Positions 33,913 to 55,940 of a stretch of DNA of 64,000 bases are shown here, piece after piece. Origin of the DNA: Mangrovibacterium diazotrophicum (GTDB lineage Bacteria > Bacteroidota > Bacteroidia > Bacteroidales > Prolixibacteraceae); contig NZ_RAPN01000001.1 in the NCBI RefSeq assembly GCF_003610535.1, positions 1,041,320 to 1,105,319 on the forward strand, written 5' to 3'. Below the pieces are notes generated by a model. The model was not told the origin of the DNA, did not search any database, and was given only the letters and a program-made list of their open reading frames with translations. The translations under genes and the position numbers were made by a program. Within the stretch, counting starts at the first letter, position 1. The number at the start of each line of letters is the position of its first letter.

Positions 33913-34707
33913 TTAATCGACCTGTATTTCAGAAACATAATCAACCCTTGAGCCTTTTTTTCCGTTATCGCAAACGGGAATTGCGTGGCTTCCCATCACA
34001 ATAACAGCAGGCATCGGAATATCATTTTCGGTTAAGAAAATCGTAAGATTGGACAACTTTGTGGAAAAGATCTGTTGATCGGGGTGCCCTACCCGACTTA
34101 CAATTTGCATCGGCAAGTCGGACGAAACCTGACGAGCATCCAATTCTGAAGCCAGTGCTTCCATATTCTTCAACCCCATGTAAAGCATTACAGGAGCCTG
34201 GGCTTTTAAAACCGAAGCTACGGTATCGATATCTTCGAAACCACCGTCTCTTTTATGACCGGTATAAAATAGCGCCATACTATTCACTCCACGCAGCGTT
34301 ACCGGGATATGGAAAGTAGTAGCCGCCGCCAGCCCGGCAGTAATGCCCGGCACAACTTCAACATTTAACCCTTCATTCAAGCAAAATTCCAGCTCTTCAG
34401 CTCCGCGTCCGAATATAAAAGGGTCTCCCGCCTTCAAGCGCACCACCCGTTTACCTTCTATGGCAAACTGCTTCAGCTGTTGATGAATTTTGTCCTGTCG
34501 CTCCGTTTGGTGCTGTCCGTCCTGGTAATGCTTACCCGCGTAGACTTTCGTCGCTCCTTCCGATGCCAAGTGAAGAATTTCCTCACCGTGCAACGCATCG
34601 TATAAAATAACATCTGCCTGCTCAATTCGCTTCAACGCGCGCAGAGTAAGCAACTCCGGATCGCCGGGTCCTGCCCCAACAATCGATATCAAATGATCTT
34701 TCCACAT
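33913..34707 (-). CDS. cobA: Uroporphyrinogen-III C-methyltransferase
   Basis: A 264-residue SAM-dependent enzyme that methylates uroporphyrinogen III twice to precorrin-2, the branch to siroheme. Clear motifs are ISIVGAGPGDPELLTLRAL at the N-terminus, VVRLKAGDPFIFGRGAEEL and VPGITAGLAAATTFHIPVTLRG. Siroheme is the cofactor of the sulfite reductase encoded upstream in the same leftward operon, and hemD is there as well. It is the last gene of the run starting at 40333. No precorrin-2 dehydrogenase or ferrochelatase gene is adjacent. Confidence 0.96.
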   Translation of the reverse strand: MWKDHLISIVGAGPGDPELLTLRALKRIEQADVILYDALHGEEILHLASEGATKVYAGKHYQDGQHQTERQDKIHQQLKQFAIEGKRVVRLKAGDPFIFGRGAEELEFCLNEGLNVEVVPGITAGLAAATTFHIPVTLRGVNSMALFYTGHKRDGGFEDIDTVASVLKAQAPVMLYMGLKNMEALASELDARQVSSDLPMQIVSRVGHPDQQIFSTKLSNLTIFLTENDIPMPAVIVMGSHAIPVCDNGKKGSRVDYVSEIQVD

Positions 34708-34761: not shown

Positions 34762-35586
34762 TTAGAATTCGGCCCCAAGATAACTCATGGGGCTGGGATA
34801 TTTAAATTTGTAATCCAAAAACCGAATCAGTTTTCGACTGTCAACAATTTTATAAGGTTCTTTCTCGTCGGAAAAATGAGGAGCAGGAATTCCGGAAACC
34901 GCCGATGCTTTCAGGTAAAATTCCTTGCGTGAAGGATGCTCCGGGCAACAAGCATTGAAGGTTTCACCCCACATGTTTTGTCGGATGATCTCCATGATGA
35001 TCGCAATGCAGTCGTCCTGATGAATGAGATTAACAGGTTTACTGCCGCCAACAGCCTCCGTTCTCCGACTCAAAAAGCGAGCGGGATTCCGATCAGCGCC
35101 AATCAATCCCCCAAAGCGAATAATGGTTGTTTGAAAATGAGGATTCAACCGGAATTGATTTTCAGCATCCAGCAGCGCTCTACCCGACGGCTTCTCCGGT
35201 AACAAAACATCCGTTTCCTTGGCAACTCCCCACGATTCGGGATAAACCGAAGTAGAGGAAATGAAAATGATTTTACGAATCGTCGTTTTTTCCAAATAGG
35301 CAATCAAATGGCGAATTTGAGCCGGAAAAATATCTTCAACATCGGCCGTACGACGCGGAGGAATCGATATAATTAATACATCCGTGTCGAAAAACTTCGG
35401 ATCATTCACCTGCAAACCAACCGAACTTGCCACCACCCGAAAGGGCCAGATCGCTGTTTGCTGCAACAGCTCCATCTTCTCTTCAGACGTTACAGAGCCT
35501 TTTACTTTGTAGCCTCTGCCAATCAACTTTCGGGCTAAGGGCAAGCCCAGCCAACCGACACCTAATATGGAAACTGTTCGCATCAT
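34762..35586 (-). CDS. SDR-type NAD(P)-binding protein in the siroheme/sulfite reductase operon
   Basis: A 274-residue protein with an N-terminal Rossmann fold (VSILGVGWLGLPLARKL, glycine-rich GxGxxG). Further on it looks like an atypical extended short-chain dehydrogenase of the YeeZ kind: IIFISSTSVYPESWG, IIRFGGLIGADRNPARFL, VNLIHQDDCIAIIMEII. The usual Tyr-X3-Lys active site of SDRs is not evident. Its place between hemD and cobA suggests a role in siroheme or tetrapyrrole chemistry, possibly as substitute for the missing precorrin-2 dehydrogenase, but this is inference only. It starts 94 bp after hemD and ends 54 bp before cobA. Confidence 0.75.
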   Translation of the reverse strand: MMRTVSILGVGWLGLPLARKLIGRGYKVKGSVTSEEKMELLQQTAIWPFRVVASSVGLQVNDPKFFDTDVLIISIPPRRTADVEDIFPAQIRHLIAYLEKTTIRKIIFISSTSVYPESWGVAKETDVLLPEKPSGRALLDAENQFRLNPHFQTTIIRFGGLIGADRNPARFLSRRTEAVGGSKPVNLIHQDDCIAIIMEIIRQNMWGETFNACCPEHPSRKEFYLKASAVSGIPAPHFSDEKEPYKIVDSRKLIRFLDYKFKYPSPMSYLGAEF

Positions 35587-35680: not shown

Positions 35681-36445
35681 TCAATCGGTTACCATTCCCT
35701 TAAACTCGGGCTCGCTCAATTTCTTTTGAAGCCGATCAATCGAGAACTGCACGAATGACAACTCTTCTTCCTCGCTTGAGACATTCACCTCATTCGGGAA
35801 AACTTTCCAGGCCATCATCGCTGTTTGGTCGCCAACTGCCATAATTTGGCCATTTGGTGCCGGGAAATTACCTGATGCCTTGTAGGTTTCAATCGATTTT
35901 GGATTGAAAAACAGGTAGGCATCAAAGGTTTGATTCAGCCATTTTTCGATCGGTGTATTTTTATAAACTTCCATCTCAACAGGTTGAATTCCGTGCGAAA
36001 ACAATTGCTCGTACAAATCGTTCAACGGCTTGTCTCCGCGCAAGTAAACCACTTTTTGCCCCGTATTGTGGCGAGCAATTAATTCGCTTAACGAGAAAAT
36101 ATTCGGTTCAGCCGAACGATGTATTTTCATCCGGGTTTTCTTCAGGATAGCTACTTGCTTCGAGCTAATGCAGAAGATCTCGTGCTGCGAGCGCAAGCCA
36201 AAATGATGGCGGAAACGTGCCAGCCAATGTGCGGCATAACTGCTTGTTACCACCAGACTTACTTTCTGATCGCGAATACTGTTTAAAAATTCAACTTTCG
36301 GTTTACGAAACTGGATGCGAAAAAGTGGTTGTTCAATAAACCGAACCGGCTGATTACGGAGCCACTGCCGGGTTTTTTCCGACAGGCTCCTTCCTATAAA
36401 TACTGAGGGTAGTTCCATTGTATCAATGTTTAAATTCTTTTCCAT
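35681..36445 (-). CDS. hemD: Uroporphyrinogen-III synthase
   Basis: A 254-residue enzyme of the HemD family that closes hydroxymethylbilane to uroporphyrinogen III. The sequence is divergent as always in HemD, but the two-domain pattern is recognisable: VSLVVTSSYAAHWLARF (about 60-76), IFCISSKQVAILKK, KVVYLRGDKPLNDLYEQLFSHGIQPVEMEVYKNTP, FDAYLFFNPKSIETY and QIMAVGDQTAMMAW. The start is uncertain: ATG 36445 overlaps the end of cysI by 23 bp, while ATG 36418 lies directly after the cysI stop and gives a more usual N-terminus (MELPSVFIGRS). Either way translation is probably coupled to cysI. It supplies the precursor for siroheme made by cobA. Confidence 0.85.
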   Translation of the reverse strand: MEKNLNIDTMELPSVFIGRSLSEKTRQWLRNQPVRFIEQPLFRIQFRKPKVEFLNSIRDQKVSLVVTSSYAAHWLARFRHHFGLRSQHEIFCISSKQVAILKKTRMKIHRSAEPNIFSLSELIARHNTGQKVVYLRGDKPLNDLYEQLFSHGIQPVEMEVYKNTPIEKWLNQTFDAYLFFNPKSIETYKASGNFPAPNGQIMAVGDQTAMMAWKVFPNEVNVSSEEEELSFVQFSIDRLQKKLSEPEFKGMVTD

Positions 36446-38117
36446 GGATAATTTCTTTCACATAAGCTTTCCGAACCACAAAATCTCCAAATCCTTCGCC
36501 TTCGTTACGGTTCTGCGCGTAATCAGCAATAATAGGTTTCAACTCTGCTAAAATTTCCTCTTCGGAAAGTGTTTCTTTATAGAGTGCATTCAAGCGGGTT
36601 CCGTTGCGGTTACCTCCAAGGTACAAGTTGTACCGACCGGCCGACTTGCCAATAAAACCGATTTCGGCCAGGTATGGGCGACCGCAACCATTCGGGCAAC
36701 CAGTCATGCGGATTACAATCTCTTCCTTTAACAGACCATGCTCATCCAAAATGACTTCGATCTTACTCATCAAATCGGGCAGGTAGCGCTCTGCTTCTGC
36801 AAAAGCCAAACTACAAGTATTCAGCGCCACACAGGCAATCGAATTCTGGCGGAGGCCGGAAAGCTGAATTGGCCACACACCATATTCTTTCAGGATTTTG
36901 GCCACTTTCTCCTTGTCATCCAAATTGGCCAAAATCAGGTTTTGATTACCTGTCAGGATAAATTGTGCATCAACTTGTTCTGCGATCTCACGCAAGGCTG
37001 TTTTCAATTTCAGGTTTCCGGTATCCTTCACACGGCCACCTTCGATAAACAGGTTCAGATTCCATTTGCCATTGGTACCTTTTACCCAACCGTAACGATC
37101 GCCGTTGCGGCTAAAACTGTACGGGCGGGCAGGCTCCAATTTGTATCCGAGGTATTTATTCAGCTCTGCTTTAAACCAATCCAATCCCTTGTGATCGATC
37201 GTGTATTTCAAACGAGCTTGCTTCCGGTTCTGGCGATTCCCATTGTCTTTTTGTACGAGGACAACTTTTTCGGCAACATCTACTGCCTGCGACGGCGTAC
37301 AAAATCCGATCACATCTCCCAAGCGTGGGTATGTTTCAGGCACACCGAAGGTTGAACCAAAACCACCACCGACAACAACGTTGTAACCAACCAGTTTGCC
37401 TTTTTCCTGGATCGCGATGTAGCCCAAATCCTGCGAAAACACATCAACATCATTATAAGGAGGAACAGCAACGCCTATTTTAAATTTACGCGGTAGGTAG
37501 CGATCACCGTAAATTGGTTCAACGTCTTTTTTACCGTCAACCAACAGGTGCTCATCCAACCAAATTTCGTGGTAGGCAGTCGTCTGCGGAGTCAAATGCG
37601 CCGAAATATCTCCGGCTAATTTGTAGGCTTGTGCGTGAATCTCAGATTCTTCCGGGTTAGCCAATGACATCACATTTCGGTTTACATCGCCACAGGCTGC
37701 AATGGTATCCATCAATGCAGAATTAATTCCCTGAATGGTTGCTTTCAGTTTACTCTTAATAACGCCGTGCAACTGAAAAGCCTGGCGTGTTGTCAATTTC
37801 AAAGTGCCGTTTGCATGCGTGTCAGCCAACGAGTCCATTTGCAACCATTGCTCTCTCGAAGCAACCCCTCCCGGCAACCGGACACGAATCAAAAAGGACC
37901 AGGCTGGTTCCAGTTTTTGCAATTTGCGCTCTTTCTCCAGGTCGCGGTCGTGCTGCTGATAAATTCCGTGAAATTTAGACATCTGGGTGTCACCATCGGC
38001 AATGGCCCCGGTAACCGGGTCTGCCAAACTTTCAACCAAGGTTCCACGCAGATAGTTGCTATCGTATTTTAATTTTTCTACTTCTGACAATTTACTCCAA
38101 TCAATTTGCTCGCTCAT
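36423..38117 (-). CDS. cysI: Assimilatory sulfite reductase, hemoprotein (beta) subunit
   Basis: A 564-residue siroheme-[4Fe-4S] protein that reduces sulfite to sulfide with six electrons. It has two sulfite/nitrite reductase ferredoxin-like repeats. The cluster/siroheme ligands are at about residues 428-434 (CVALNTC, CX5C) and 470-474 (CPNGC, CX3C), followed by GRPYLAEIGFIG. The N-terminal KLTTRQAFQLHGV segment binds siroheme. It works with the flavoprotein encoded just upstream (cysJ). The 143-bp gap before it holds a probable second promoter with two operator-like boxes (38138-38184). The downstream hemD overlaps its end. Confidence 0.96.
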   Translation of the reverse strand: MSEQIDWSKLSEVEKLKYDSNYLRGTLVESLADPVTGAIADGDTQMSKFHGIYQQHDRDLEKERKLQKLEPAWSFLIRVRLPGGVASREQWLQMDSLADTHANGTLKLTTRQAFQLHGVIKSKLKATIQGINSALMDTIAACGDVNRNVMSLANPEESEIHAQAYKLAGDISAHLTPQTTAYHEIWLDEHLLVDGKKDVEPIYGDRYLPRKFKIGVAVPPYNDVDVFSQDLGYIAIQEKGKLVGYNVVVGGGFGSTFGVPETYPRLGDVIGFCTPSQAVDVAEKVVLVQKDNGNRQNRKQARLKYTIDHKGLDWFKAELNKYLGYKLEPARPYSFSRNGDRYGWVKGTNGKWNLNLFIEGGRVKDTGNLKLKTALREIAEQVDAQFILTGNQNLILANLDDKEKVAKILKEYGVWPIQLSGLRQNSIACVALNTCSLAFAEAERYLPDLMSKIEVILDEHGLLKEEIVIRMTGCPNGCGRPYLAEIGFIGKSAGRYNLYLGGNRNGTRLNALYKETLSEEEILAELKPIIADYAQNRNEGEGFGDFVVRKAYVKEIIHGKEFKH

Positions 38118-38260: not shown

Positions 38261-40060
38261 TTAATATACATCAGTCTGGAATCGCTTGTCCTTTTTCAGC
38301 TTTTTGAAGTAATCGCGGGCTTGATCTTCGCTCATTCCACCTTGTGTTTGAATAATCTCCAACAAGGTTTTCTGAACGTCTTTTGCCATGTGCTTCATAT
38401 CGCCGCAGAGGTAGAAACTCGCTCCGCTTTGCAACCAATCGAACACTTCTTTTTGTTGTTGCGCCAAACGATGTTGAACGTAGATTTTTTCTTCCTGATC
38501 GCGTGAGAAAGCCAAATCGATTTTTCCGAGTACACCTTTCTTCAGGGCTTTCTGCCATTCAATTTGATAGAGGAAATCGGAGTAAAAACGACGCTCGCCG
38601 AAGAACAACCAGGTTTTTCCTTTTCTCTTTTGAACCTCGCTTTGCTGAATGAATGCGCGGAATGGAGCAATTCCGGTTCCCGCACCAACCATGATGATCG
38701 GCGTTTCCTCACTCTCCGGAAGACGGAAGCCAGGATTGCGCTCAATGTAAACCGGTACTTCTTCGTCAATCTCAATACGATCAGCCAGGTAAGTCGATGC
38801 AGCGCCTTCGCGGTTACGGCCTTTGTTTTCGTAACGTACTGTTGCCACTGTGATGTGAACCTCATCACCAACGGCATCCTGGCTCGAAGAAATGCTGTAC
38901 AAACGAGCTGGTAACGGACGAAGCAAATCGATCAATTCCTGGGCCGTCAATTCAGCAGGAAACTCAACCAGCAAATCCAGAATATCGTTACCCCACAAGT
39001 AGCTATCCAACAGCTCGTCGTTTTCCAAGATTTTTGCCACTTCCGGATTACCTGTCTTTTCAGCATATTTCTGAATCACATCTCTTGTCAGCAAGGTAAT
39101 TTCAACCTGGTGACGCAAAGCAACATTCAATGAGTATTCAGTTTTCTTTAAAACAACCGGAGCATCAGTGTCTAATTTTAAACGCTCGATAATTTGCTCA
39201 ACCAAAACAGGTGGGTTATCAGTTAAAATGCCAACCGAATCTCCAGGCTGATATGAAATACCTGATCCATTTAAATCCAATTCGACATGATATACTTCCT
39301 TATCAGAATCACGACCGGTAATTTTCACCTTGTCAATCACCGTTGCCCGGAATGGATTCTTTTGATTATACACAACCGCTTCTTCTTGCACTGAACTTGT
39401 CGCAGACGTTGAAACCGCTGCAGGTTGCAATGCTGCCAATTTCTCCAGAATGGCATTCATCCAGGTATTGGCATCTTCTTCATAGTCCACATCGCAGGTT
39501 ACAATCGGGAAAAGCTCTTTAGCTCCGGCTTGTTTCAATGCATGATCGATATCAAGCCCGGTTTGACAGAAAAGTTTGTAGCTCTTATCACCCAAAGCCA
39601 ATACCGAGAAATTCAGATTCGGCAATTTGGGAGCGCGTTTACCGGTAATGAAGCGGTGGAAATCTTCAGCCATTTCAGGCGGCTCACCTTCTCCGTGGGT
39701 GCTCACAATTACCAGCAGGTTTTCTTCGTCGGTCAGCTGTTTTGGATTGTAATCATCCATAGCCAGCACACTGGCCGAAATTGATTTTTCACCCAACAAC
39801 CCACCGAGTTTTTTGGCAATGCCCTCGCTACGGCCTGTGTGAGAACCATACAAAATAGTCAATTTCAAATGCGAAGCCGCAACAACCGCAGCTGCAGTTT
39901 GCGCTTGCTGTCCAATGGCAACGGCCGGTTTGTTGTAGCTGGCAGTCAATCCTTGAAAATAACCGTTCAACCAGATTAACTGCTCAGGCACTGCTCCTTC
40001 CAGTAATACTTCCAGTGCTTTCGCCTGGGCCTCGCTTAAGGGATTCAATTTAATGCTCAT
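38261..40060 (-). CDS. cysJ: Assimilatory sulfite reductase, flavoprotein (alpha) subunit
   Basis: A 599-residue diflavin reductase that passes electrons from NADPH through FAD and FMN to the CysI hemoprotein. The N-terminal flavodoxin domain (about 65-205) shows TILYGSHTGRSEGIAKKL and STHGEGEPPEMAEDF. The connecting FAD domain has RLYSISSS and the GAASTYLADRI segment. The NADPH domain has MVGAGTGIAPFRAFIQQ and FYLCGDMKHMAKDV and ends in RFQTDVY, the usual aromatic C-terminus. Length is normal. It follows the DUF2061 gene by 42 bp and precedes cysI by 143 bp. Confidence 0.96.
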   Translation of the reverse strand: MSIKLNPLSEAQAKALEVLLEGAVPEQLIWLNGYFQGLTASYNKPAVAIGQQAQTAAAVVAASHLKLTILYGSHTGRSEGIAKKLGGLLGEKSISASVLAMDDYNPKQLTDEENLLVIVSTHGEGEPPEMAEDFHRFITGKRAPKLPNLNFSVLALGDKSYKLFCQTGLDIDHALKQAGAKELFPIVTCDVDYEEDANTWMNAILEKLAALQPAAVSTSATSSVQEEAVVYNQKNPFRATVIDKVKITGRDSDKEVYHVELDLNGSGISYQPGDSVGILTDNPPVLVEQIIERLKLDTDAPVVLKKTEYSLNVALRHQVEITLLTRDVIQKYAEKTGNPEVAKILENDELLDSYLWGNDILDLLVEFPAELTAQELIDLLRPLPARLYSISSSQDAVGDEVHITVATVRYENKGRNREGAASTYLADRIEIDEEVPVYIERNPGFRLPESEETPIIMVGAGTGIAPFRAFIQQSEVQKRKGKTWLFFGERRFYSDFLYQIEWQKALKKGVLGKIDLAFSRDQEEKIYVQHRLAQQQKEVFDWLQSGASFYLCGDMKHMAKDVQKTLLEIIQTQGGMSEDQARDYFKKLKKDKRFQTDVY

Positions 40061-40102: not shown

Positions 40103-40333
40103 TTAAATTTGGTACTCGATGTCAGACTGATCAATCCGTCCAAACTTGATACGGTTCCAGGTCCGTTCGTGCATGTAGTAGAGAAACATCTTCGTAAACA
40201 GCTCCACACCACCAATTGTAACTGCAAAATCCAACTTCCCTGTAACCAACCAGGCAATCATCATCGTGTCAATCGTACCGACGGTTCTCCACGATATTGA
40301 CTTCACTACGCTGCGATAAGGTTTTTCTCTCAT
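40103..40333 (-). CDS. DUF2061 small membrane protein
   Basis: A 76-residue protein of the DUF2061 family: ISWRTVGTIDTMMIAWLVTGKLDFAVTIGGVELFTKMFLYYMHERTWNRI, with two short hydrophobic segments and the ending H-E-R-x-W found in the family. In other bacteria this family often sits with sulfate-assimilation genes, so a membrane role in sulfur metabolism is likely but unproven. It is the first structural gene of the operon, 46 bp downstream of the attenuator-like terminator, so its expression depends on read-through. Confidence 0.88.
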   Translation of the reverse strand: MREKPYRSVVKSISWRTVGTIDTMMIAWLVTGKLDFAVTIGGVELFTKMFLYYMHERTWNRIKFGRIDQSDIEYQI

Positions 40334-40378
40334 GATCGATATTTATTTTGTTTTTATTTTTTCTGAAAATTGAAGCAT

Positions 40379-40413
40379 AAAAAAAGCCCTTCTGCGTCTG
40401 CAGAAGGGCTTTT
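40379..40413 (-). terminator. Attenuator terminator in the sulfite reductase leader
   Basis: A perfect 14-bp stem, AAAAGCCCTTCTGC (minus 40413-40400) and GCAGAAGGGCTTTT (40395-40382), with a four-base loop is followed by seven U. It lies between the leader ORF (stop at 40446) and the first operon gene (40333), so it can only act by stopping transcription before the operon. Segment CCTTCTGC of its 5' arm can instead pair with GCAGAAGG inside the leader ORF (40457-40464). Confidence 0.85.
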
Positions 40414-40445
40414 TGTTTTTATCGTTTCGTTATCCTATAACAATA

Positions 40446-40502
40446 TCAACTTCTTTCCTTCTGCAAAAAAGAACCACAACACATACACATACACATACAC
40501 AT
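40446..40502 (-). CDS. Cys/Met leader peptide of the sulfite reductase operon
   Basis: An 18-codon ORF on the minus strand reads MCMCMCMCCGSFLQKERS and stops at TGA. Five of its first nine codons are Cys (all TGT) and four are Met. It starts about 45 nt into the predicted transcript. Codons 13-16 contain GCAGAAGG, which can pair with the 5' arm of the terminator that follows. A ribosome stalled at the Cys codons would leave this segment free to form the antiterminator; one reaching the stop codon would cover it and allow termination. This matches the design of trp, his and leu leaders. Function is inferred from sequence; there is no obvious Shine-Dalgarno, which is usual in this phylum. Confidence 0.8.
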   Translation of the reverse strand: MCMCMCMCCGSFLQKERS

Positions 40503-40554
40503 GTTTGCACTTGAAGAAGGGTTAATATTTACAGAAGTTATCTTTGTCATTTTT

Positions 40555-40585
40555 TCAATATAAAAGGAGACTTACCTGACTCAAA
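40555..40585 (-). promoter_or_regulatory. Promoter of the sulfite reductase operon leader
   Basis: On the minus strand TTTG (40582-40585) is followed after exactly 19 bases by TATATTGA (40555-40562), close to the Bacteroidota form TTTG-N19-TAnnTTTG. Transcription would begin near 40547, giving a leader RNA of about 210 nt that includes the Cys/Met ORF and the terminator. Confidence 0.55.
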
Positions 40586-40620: not shown

Positions 40621-40832
40621 TGAAATCAGATATAGAACTCTTTTTGTGATTTATTTGGCAAATATAGAGGTAAAATCGACATTTCGAAATATTTCGATGT
40701 AAAAAAATTATTAATTCAAGAATCACATTTTCTTAAAAATCTAAAATACATCAAATTATCAGGTGATGAATTGTAAATAATTACACCAACTTATTTTCAT
40801 TTTATTATTTTTGTGACAAAAATCAGAAAATA
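40613..40832. other. AT-rich divergent intergenic region
   Basis: About 220 bp between the sulfite reductase leader promoter and the chorismate mutase-like gene. A -7 box TATTTTTG (40806-40813) precedes the latter but has no clear -33 partner. A short inverted repeat ATTTCGAAATATTTCGAT occurs near 40681. No other gene is seen. Confidence 0.4.
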
Positions 40833-41135
40833 ATGAAAGACGCAAAATCCTGCAAGACCATTGAGGAGGTTCGACAAGAAATTGATCGGATTGACAGAGA
40901 GGTAATGGAACTACTGGCCAGACGACAGGACTATGTGTGCGAAATTATCCGGTTTAAAAAAGATGAAGAAAGTATTGTAGCGCAAGGTAGACAAGACCAG
41001 CTTTATCAACAGCGACGTGAATGGGCCGAAGAACTCCGCTTGTCGCCTGAAATGATTGAGGAGGTTTATAAAACGATGGTACGACATAACATCCAAAAAG
41101 AACTGGAGCTGCACAAACAAACTAAAAACAGTTAA
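40833..41135 (+). CDS. Chorismate mutase type II / isochorismate-pyruvate lyase-like protein
   Basis: A 100-residue all-helical AroQ-fold protein. Residues matching the chorismate mutase active site are R14, R31, K42 or K43, R53 and Q88. The glutamate that follows Arg in E. coli chorismate mutase is Gln here (R53-Q54), and the segment IVAQGRQDQLYQQRREWAEELRL resembles PchB (isochorismate pyruvate lyase), which shares the fold. So it may rearrange chorismate to prephenate or split isochorismate; the sequence alone does not decide. It is not fused to prephenate dehydratase and no other aromatic pathway gene is beside it. It is 8 bp upstream of a DRE-TIM aldolase and surely co-transcribed with it. 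Confidence 0.8.
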   Translation: MKDAKSCKTIEEVRQEIDRIDREVMELLARRQDYVCEIIRFKKDEESIVAQGRQDQLYQQRREWAEELRLSPEMIEEVYKTMVRHNIQKELELHKQTKNS

Positions 41136-55382: not shown

Positions 55383-55414
55383 ATAAGAAAAGCCATCTGA
55401 AACAGATGGCTTTC
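55383..55414 (-). terminator. Terminator between ompH and murI
   Basis: GAAAAGCCATCTG and CAGATGGCTTTC pair around a three-base loop (55387-55413). Facing left, it ends in U-rich sequence, 20 bp past the end of the second ompH gene. Confidence 0.75.
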
Positions 55415-55433
55415 CCTGAAATATCGGATAAAA

Positions 55434-55940
55434 TTAAATTCCCAATTTTGCTTTTACCAAAGGCAACAAATCAACACTTTGGTTTGACTTGTAAAGCACA
55501 GCGTTACTATCGAAAACATAGATAACACCTTGTTCTTTGGCAACAGTTTCAATCGTTTGATTAGCCTTGTCGAAAATAGGCTGCATCAACTCCGCTTGCT
55601 TTTGTTGCAGTTTTTGTTGTGCGCTTTGGTTGAACGTTTGAATACGTTGTTGCAGGTTCTGCAAATCTTCTTCTTTCGCTGAACGAACCATGTCATCCAA
55701 TGAATCTGCTATTTGAGTATATTCTGCTAATTTGGTTTGAAATTCCTTTTGCATGCTTGCCAATTGATCTTCCATTCCTTTTGCTTGCTGTTCCAGCGTT
55801 TTTTGCGCAGCTGCTGTCTCAGGCATTGCCTGAATTAAAGCCTGTGAATCGATGTGAGCAAACTTCAATGTTTGCGCTTTTACCATTCCGGCTGAAAACA
55901 GCAAGATTGCTACCAAACAAATTTTGAAAACACTTTTCAT
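55434..55940 (-). CDS. OmpH/Skp family periplasmic chaperone (paralog 1)
   Basis: A 168-residue exported protein (signal peptide 1-22, VKAQ) with the Skp/OmpH pattern. A short N-terminal strand KFAHIDSQALIQAMPE is followed by a long amphipathic coiled coil (about 45-130, rich in Gln, Glu and Lys), and the C-terminal IYVFDSNAVLYKS closes the body domain. Skp-type trimers hold unfolded outer membrane proteins in the periplasm before BamA inserts them. It directly follows the second paralog and bamA in the same operon. Confidence 0.9.
   Translation of the reverse strand: MKSVFKICLVAILLFSAGMVKAQTLKFAHIDSQALIQAMPETAAAQKTLEQQAKGMEDQLASMQKEFQTKLAEYTQIADSLDDMVRSAKEEDLQNLQQRIQTFNQSAQQKLQQKQAELMQPIFDKANQTIETVAKEQGVIYVFDSNAVLYKSNQSVDLLPLVKAKLGI

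Follow-up and report, generated by a model that had tools for sequence, protein, structure and literature searches.

The trp, his, leu, ilv and thr attenuators of Proteobacteria share a leader ORF carrying codons for the amino acid of the pathway, an intrinsic terminator, and alternative 1:2, 2:3 and 3:4 pairings in which segment 2 can be reached by a ribosome at the leader stop codon. In mycobacteria, polycysteine leader ORFs lie before cys operons, and these are reportedly leaderless, going by the title of a 2020 paper of Canestrari et al. An earlier account describes Cys leader ORFs in mycobacteria and other Actinobacteria with no obvious terminators (Seliverstov et al. 2005, PMC1262725). 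Until the Firmicutes case that they describe, Naville and Gautheret (2010, PMC2965389) were aware of no leader peptide system demonstrated beyond the Proteobacteria and Actinobacteria. Within Bacteroidota, a Bacteroides thetaiotaomicron study mentions sORFs reminiscent of leader peptides (PMC7366714), and the Bacteroid-trp RNA (RF01692), a predicted cis-regulatory RNA that is a trp leader by name, is listed for Bacteroidetes in a table of PMC2864571. Cys T-boxes and SAM riboswitches are likewise RNA leaders of sulfur amino acid genes. Among the papers listed by searches of the open-licence literature we found no Cys attenuator from Bacteroidota, in agreement with an initial annotation of the locus described here, which knew of none for cysJI in this phylum.

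Here we describe a leader in Mangrovibacterium diazotrophicum (Prolixibacteraceae) that has all of these proteobacterial features, but its codons are for Cys and Met, its promoter box is TAnnTTTG, its genes are those of sulfite reductase and siroheme synthesis, and its host belongs to Bacteroidota. It resembles the mycobacterial leaders in its Cys-codon ORF and differs from them by its antiterminator and intrinsic terminator, and probably by a 5′ UTR. Judged by comparison of sequences, the leader is very probably a ribosome-mediated transcription attenuator of the trp/his type, with Cys as the regulatory codons, interleaved with Met; the initial annotation had proposed such a reading, and comparison supports it with the amendments given below.

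A leader ORF and terminator upstream of the sulfite reductase operon

The window, the whole 64,000-nucleotide stretch of DNA that we analyzed, contains a divergent ORF starting at 40833 and a DUF2061 gene starting at 40333, with a leader ORF and a terminator between them on the minus strand. The features of the locus, in window positions, are as follows.

40659..40666, minus strand: TATATTTG, a match to the Bacteroidota −7 box TAnnTTTG, conserved upstream of the leaders of relatives
40446..40550, minus strand: leader ORF MTKITSVNINPSSSANMCMCMCMCCGSFLQKERS, 34 aa, with its ATG at 40550 and its stop codon at 40448-40446
40532..40538, minus strand: segment 1, ACTTCTG, leader codons 5-7, able to pair with segment 2 (motif and 1:2 duplex)
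40476..40502, minus strand: regulatory codon block MCMCMCMCC of Cys and Met codons (sequence and relatives)
40457..40467, minus strand: segment 2, TTTGCAGAAGG, the last leader codons and the antiterminator arm (11-pair duplex with segment 3)
40397..40407, minus strand: segment 3, CCTTCTGCAGA, pairing with segment 2 or, through its CCTTCTGC part, with segment 4 (duplex folding)
40378..40414, minus strand: intrinsic terminator with a 15-pair stem (40381-40414), a 4-nt loop AGAC and a T run; its 3′ arm is segment 4
40103..40333, minus strand: DUF2061 membrane protein, with whose gene the controlled operon begins (PF09834, E 2.1e-21)
38261..40060, minus strand: cysJ, sulfite reductase flavoprotein (Pfam Flavodoxin_1, FAD_binding_1, NAD_binding_1)
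36423..38117, minus strand: cysI, sulfite reductase hemoprotein (Pfam NIR_SIR, NIR_SIR_ferr)
35681..36445, minus strand: hemD, uroporphyrinogen-III synthase of the siroheme branch (HEM4, E 6.6e-12)
34762..35586, minus strand: operon-encoded NAD(P)-binding protein (all matches weak, NAD_binding_10 at E 5.5e-5, under the Pfam cut-off)
33913..34707, minus strand: TP_methylase family protein (PF00590, E 5.2e-47), putatively cobA/sumT-type from its position

The terminator that the initial annotation placed before the DUF2061-cysJ-cysI-hemD operon is thus present, between the leader and the structural genes as in an attenuator, and it is this feature that the mycobacterial type reportedly lacks. 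A 286-nt region spanning the leader folds more stably than all 200 of 200 dinucleotide shuffles (z −4.46). The sequence ATGTGYATGTGYTGY occurs three times in the 5.8-Mb genome, and its reverse, used as a control, not at all. Of these copies, two are leaders in front of cys genes; the third (L023) shows no leader anatomy, and we took it as a chance occurrence.

An Rfam scan of the window returned nothing at gathering score, T-box, SAM and known leaders included, and the below-threshold hits on the leader were taken as resting on its hairpin. Bacteroid-trp had no gathering-score match, either in the window or across 18 loci that carry leaders. There is no Cys T-box or SAM riboswitch in the window, and among the same 18 loci there is a single SAM riboswitch, opposite cysK in L219.

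Conservation of the leader in relatives

A DUF2061 search of 61 genomes, M. diazotrophicum among them, gave 20 loci, 13 of which (L001-L011, L013 and L014) have the same arrangement directly upstream: an ORF with an early Ser, a block of Cys and Met (MMMCMCC, for example) and segment 2 in the last codons, followed by a terminator carrying CCTTCTGC or a close form of it. The leader is not directly upstream of DUF2061 in L012, from another family, or in L015, and none was seen for the five remote DUF2061 members L016-L020; in the genome of L015 a leader lies upstream of cysD, which heads the same gene cluster (G009:C12:90162). The DUF2061 membrane protein (40103-40333 in the window) recurs beside cysJ or cysDN under such leaders.

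We built a covariance model, R1, from the 13 orthologous leaders, giving it no structure but the terminator. Of 18 named CysJ loci, R1 finds the leader in 15, which include two from Marinilabilia, and finds none in the other three (L038, L039 and L040); the leader is kept in loci of two named families. Among 140 genomes of the family, 68 have a match at E 1e-10 or better, 96 at 1e-3, and 44 have none at 1e-3, the weaker matches down to that level including ilvD leaders and chance terminators. The share of R1 matches that keep the Cys block and terminator is partly circular, as the model was built from such leaders. A weak match elsewhere in the window (55384-55531, E 0.08) covers the end of a 168-aa ORF and its terminator and was taken as chance. 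The 74 strong matches (L042-L110, L114 and the four named loci L027, L031, L032 and L037), in which some sequences occur twice, make up alignment A3.

Promoter box and leader codons

The initial annotation put a promoter at 40555-40585, where sigma-70-like sites are no more frequent than chance predicts (7 in the region against 6.8 expected); the TAnnTTTG box at 40659-40666 takes its place. TAnnTTTG is the Bacteroidota −7 consensus given in PMC7366714. It is found within 220 nt upstream of 72 of the 74 aligned leaders, against 11.2 expected from mononucleotide shuffles. Its commonest distance to the ATG among the 74 is 46 nt, and in the four same-genus leaders (L042-L045) it is 111-134 nt; in the window the box starts 116 nt before the ATG. 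These spacings, counted from a predicted box, would speak against a leaderless ORF of the mycobacterial kind, and the putative transcription start lies a few bases past the box, at about 40651.

Judging by the sequence, a short leader ORF thus lies between the promoter and the first structural gene. It had been annotated at 40446-40502: the Cys codons are indeed in frame on the minus strand, but the start at 40502 is replaced by the ATG at 40550, so that the Cys stretch is the 3′ half of a 34-codon ORF whose in-frame upstream start is kept in relatives. The window Cys codons span 40499 to 40476 in a near-perfect TGTATG repeat. Against Pfam and NCBIfam, leader families included, the peptide matches no model.

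Codons were counted in 69 leaders (70 distinct rows of the alignment minus L107, whose core the script read in another frame). They average 3.8 Cys and 5.2 internal Met per leader, and with Met at 17% and Cys at 12% of residues, Met is as enriched as Cys. The Cys codons are TGT (223) and TGC (37). Codons for the amino acid that the operon produces are clustered, with at least one Cys in each of the 69 leaders, although a few leaders have only one or two. The core MCMC is well kept and the peptide outside the block varies. In 20 of the 69, the codon nearest segment 2 is a Met codon following the last Cys codon. The description of the locus as a Cys-codon leader stands, insofar as most orthologues keep the Cys codons, and is amended in that Met is equally enriched and the leader belongs to a cys/met/ilv set.

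Alternative pairings and covariation

A MAFFT alignment (A1) misplaced segment 2 in two rows, and an RNAalifold consensus recovered the terminator, along with a small hairpin within the Cys block, and neither 1:2 nor 2:3; we therefore scored pairings by duplex folding. Segments 2 and 3 had been annotated as GCAGAAGG at 40457-40464 and CCTTCTGC at 40400-40407, and both are present as described. The segment 1 proposed with them, CCTTCT at 40513-40521, occurs in only one of the 74 aligned leaders, that of the window itself, and is replaced by the better-kept ACTTCTG at 40532-40538: CTTCTG occurs in 39 of 74 leaders and close forms in 50 of 74 (first 36 alignment columns), with the motif not kept in about a third.

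A T run of at least five follows the stem in 74 of 74 matches, and the weakest 3:4 duplex is −12.8 kcal/mol (the search model contains this stem). The 2:3 duplex passes at the 5% level in 72 of 74 leaders with 100 shuffles and in 71 of 74 with 300, L047, L048 and L082 being the failures, and 1:2 passes the same 5% test in 69 of 74; the shuffles for these pairing tests preserve base content, not dinucleotides. The 2:3 pairing is exclusive with 3:4, and a protector 1:2 is available, with the exact segment 1 motif in about half of the leaders. Relatives that retain the terminator and lack the Cys codons or the 2:3 pairing, which the initial annotation had named as evidence against its reading, are exceptions (the few leaders with 1-2 Cys codons and the 2-3 of 74 that fail the 2:3 test); most orthologues keep the Cys codons, segment 2 and the terminator.

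The initial annotation also suggested looking for covariation, and this is found: in the 70 distinct rows, segments 2 and 3 paired with their own partners sum to −987.7 kcal/mol, against −840 (sd 15) for permuted partners, with 0 of 5,000 permutations as good. The 2:3 pairing is absent from the R1 structure, and the segment 2 sequence was in R1. Permuting among 30 cluster representatives gave 0 of 2,000 as good, and permuting within those clusters 7 of 2,000; with fewer representatives the counts rise to 1 of 2,000 (10 representatives) and 37 of 2,000 (six). Relatedness inflates the 2:3 covariation, which is partly tied to lineage. Pair switches are seen in AGCCCTTCTGCAAA, counted from 0, at index 3 (G-C 37, A-U 21, G-U 5), index 8 (A-U 60, G-U 6, G-C 3) and index 10 (G-C 27, G-U 21, U-G 9, U-A 7, C-G 1), counts that lean toward pairing since duplex folding selects the best pairs.

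The positions of the segments also fit. From the end of the last Cys codon to the first paired base of segment 2 the median is 12 nt (range 1-19, 69 leaders), agreeing with the spacing of about 12 nt first noted in the window, and segment 2 starts 9-25 nt ahead of the stop codon in 69 of 69 leaders. Going by the usual ribosome footprint, a ribosome at the stop codon would cover segment 2 and one stalled on the first Cys codons would leave it free; if it stalls only at the final Cys codon, it may reach over the 5′ end of segment 2. By geometry, then, segment 2 would be covered at the stop yet free upon stalling in the block.

Leaders upstream of other genes

We fetched 119 loci: the best 150 R1 matches listed, minus L042-L071 (30) and the match at the cysK gene of M. 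diazotrophicum itself. The first recognized gene codes for CysK in 28, DUF2061 in 25, an OsmC-type protein in 16, IlvD in 11, a siroheme synthase N-terminal protein in six, HemA (glutamyl-tRNA reductase) in five, MetY in three, CysD in two, carbonic anhydrase in two and LeuA in one, with names taken from NCBIfam scans of representatives and the carbonic anhydrase and OsmC matches lying under NCBIfam cut-offs. The downstream gene was not recognized in 20 of the 119; four of these (L110, L112, L115 and L136) have Cys/Met-bearing leaders, and most of the remainder look like chance terminators. In L112, a Met/Cys-rich ORF, MMIQLFENRIMMCMMPCRMKNMCMMACCMKFYCRRMKH, scores 66 bits with R1 and the contig ends before any downstream gene is seen. 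The OsmC-type protein comes first behind Cys/Met leaders in L113, L116, L122, L129 and 12 more of the 119, and in some of these loci cysK or a PLP sulfhydrylase-like gene is next; a link between OsmC-type proteins and Cys synthesis is possible.

Leader composition, computed without the first Met and with a picker that favors the ORF with most Cys, tracks the pathway: leaders of cysJI, siroheme, cysD and cysK genes are rich in Cys and Met, those of metY in Met, and those of ilvD in Ile/Leu/Val. Leaders of DUF2061 have 13.5% Cys and 16.5% Met, and the 28 of CysK 15.1% and 10.6%; the three MetY leaders have 33.7% Met and 5.6% Cys. In the 11 IlvD leaders Ile, Leu and Val together make up 55.7%, with 0.9% Cys and 0.5% Met, and in the one LeuA leader they make up 54.5%. 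Because the picker took the most-Cys ORF, the ilvD and metY compositions run against its bias. The ORF picked in L176 does not look like an ilv leader. One ilvD leader has a weak ilv leader match in NCBIfam, and likewise in Pfam. Met-rich leader ORFs precede metY in L111, L118 and L125, with metX next in L111 and terminators in L111 and L118.

The M. diazotrophicum genome itself has further examples. Its cysK has a Cys/Met leader, MNKYFFYMCMCCCMKMQKEEGMCLLQ, followed by a terminator (L022/L198, C1:2181786-2181949; R1 40 bits), and its ilvD has two tandem Ile/Leu/Val leaders, MKLSAIISNVVILLVVVISQAK and MKHYSTYFPVVRLLVILRKT, each with its own intrinsic terminator (L248, C3, upstream of 218926-219912, minus strand). 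No Met- or Cys-rich leader was found within 350 nt upstream of its three MetY-like genes, nor an R1 match, and upstream of a second cysK (L245) no ORF with three Cys was found within 1.6 kb. The script found terminators in 16 of 17 hand-picked other leaders, and for 13 of these 16 the 2:3 pairing was equaled in no more than 25 of 500 shuffles; beyond that level were the cysK leader of M. diazotrophicum (41), one ilvD leader (76) and a carbonic anhydrase leader (32). On these comparisons of sequence composition, the window leader is one of a family set before cysK, cysD, siroheme, metY, ilvD and leuA genes, with codons matched to the pathway.

Cysteine-codon ORFs beyond the family

Among 247 genomes of the order, R1 matched eight at 1e-4, M. 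diazotrophicum included; searches of more than 40 genomes ran with stricter filters and 11 candidates scored per genome, so that misses are likely. One match outside the family, L193, has a Cys leader and terminator before cysE- and cysK-like genes (both named by eye), and the others have no Cys ORF and look like chance terminators.

A CysK search of 218 genomes of the phylum supplied 48 loci, the 30 best and 20 chosen ones, each set less a locus of M. diazotrophicum; both of its loci are left out of the counts. We scored Cys-cluster ORFs, short ORFs with at least three Cys in six residues, in the 1.5-1.6 kb upstream. They occur in sense in 19 of 48 loci and in antisense in six of 48, with 2.6 expected from block shuffles; 19 of 48 is not a phylum frequency, as the sample favors close CysK relatives, and not all 19 are at the gene start. 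Many lie immediately ahead of a cysE or cysK gene (MKTFASISHSSFSLQLNCCRSNNCACCCC and MKQHILSGSPFCLCCCCGLPSPII are examples; cysE named by NCBIfam in L199), and these have Cys runs and few Met. Terminators are present in L202, L217 and L219, and none was seen behind the Cys ORF in L199, L201, L209, L212, L216, L223 or L227; the terminator finder left an imperfect hairpin in L208 unreported and flagged a weak one over the stop codon of the L222 ORF. L210, L211 and L215 also have Cys-run short ORFs before cysE- or cysK-type genes, likewise with no terminator seen. A match under the NCBIfam cut-off between the L212 Cys-run ORF and a Cys-rich peptide family was taken as a matter of composition. The SAM riboswitch of L219 (2721-2836, 81 bits) is on the strand opposite a cysK gene that has a Cys leader, and the two may be RNA sensors of sulfur amino acids placed back to back.

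A model for attenuation, and other explanations

In the attenuation model, scarce charged tRNA-Cys, and possibly tRNA-Met, would stall the leading ribosome in the Cys/Met block; segment 2 would then be free, 2:3 would form, and RNA polymerase would read into DUF2061-cysJI and the siroheme genes. With ample Cys, the ribosome would reach the stop codon and cover segment 2, 3:4 would form, and transcription would end; without translation, 1:2 would form, and the terminator would also be left to form. The anatomy, its conservation, the alternative pairings and the match of codons to pathway are seen in the sequences; transcription start, translation, stalling, coupling and response are steps that we infer. 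Met supply is probably sensed as well; this is suggested because enrichment of Met codons equals that of Cys codons in the sulfur leaders, and the ilvD leaders have almost no Met.

How far Met matters is the point on which the closest competing explanation turns, namely that the leader senses a shortage of Met or of sulfur amino acids generally, with Met codons acting and Cys codons adding to them. Sulfide from the operon goes into the synthesis of Cys and of Met alike, the 69 leaders have 17% Met against 12% Cys, in 20 of the 69 the last Cys codon is separated from segment 2 by a Met codon, and metY leaders are Met-rich. However, the Cys-cluster ORFs before cysE and cysK elsewhere in the phylum have few Met, and the shift of metY leaders to Met, with Cys at 5.6%, separates two kinds of leader by pathway; we consider this explanation unlikely. 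Less probable again is a mode like the one proposed for the Cys leaders of mycobacteria, in which translating the leader would affect either Rho-dependent termination or how the following gene is translated, and the hairpin would be incidental. Several cysE and cysK Cys ORFs of other families do lack a visible terminator, and a terminator-free mode may exist, but the stem and T run are present in 74 of 74 matches (found with a stem-containing model), and covariation ties the terminator arm to the competing 2:3 helix.

Two further explanations were considered. Met/Cys-rich peptides are often metal-binding, and the well-kept MCMC core would suit a metal- or thiol-binding micropeptide (MCMCC) encoded in the 5′ UTR ahead of a fixed terminator; this is improbable in the extreme, given that the family's ilvD and metY leaders have the same anatomy with other residues, that the peptide varies outside the block, and that segment 2 is constrained as RNA. 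That the near-perfect TGTATG block in the window is only a short (TGTATG)n repeat that happens to adjoin an ordinary terminator, with no regulation, is scarcely credible. Sequence comparison already contradicts it: the block is kept in two named families and many genomes of the family with synonymous TGT/TGC variation, the terminator lies between a promoter box and the first gene, and the upstream ORF is divergent.

Implications for Bacteroidota

Returning to the attenuation model, the leader is a concrete and apparently widespread candidate for the control of sulfur assimilation in Bacteroidota, a phylum for which we found little on ribosome-mediated attenuation in the open-licence literature. 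A broader proposal, which we regard as evenly balanced, is that Cys or Cys/Met leaders control cysE, cysK, cysJI, cysD, siroheme, OsmC, carbonic anhydrase and metY genes in cis throughout the phylum, in a terminator form, as in the window, and in a second, terminator-free form. If true, it would also imply coupling between RNA polymerase and the leading ribosome in Bacteroidota. Since attenuation of this kind requires the leading ribosome to keep up behind RNA polymerase, the leader offers a probe of transcription-translation coupling in these bacteria, and within one family the leaders rich in Cys/Met, Met or Ile/Leu/Val are a codon-swap series supplied by nature. Such leaders may also help in predicting the amino acid sensed by poorly annotated operons and in annotating unlisted short ORFs.
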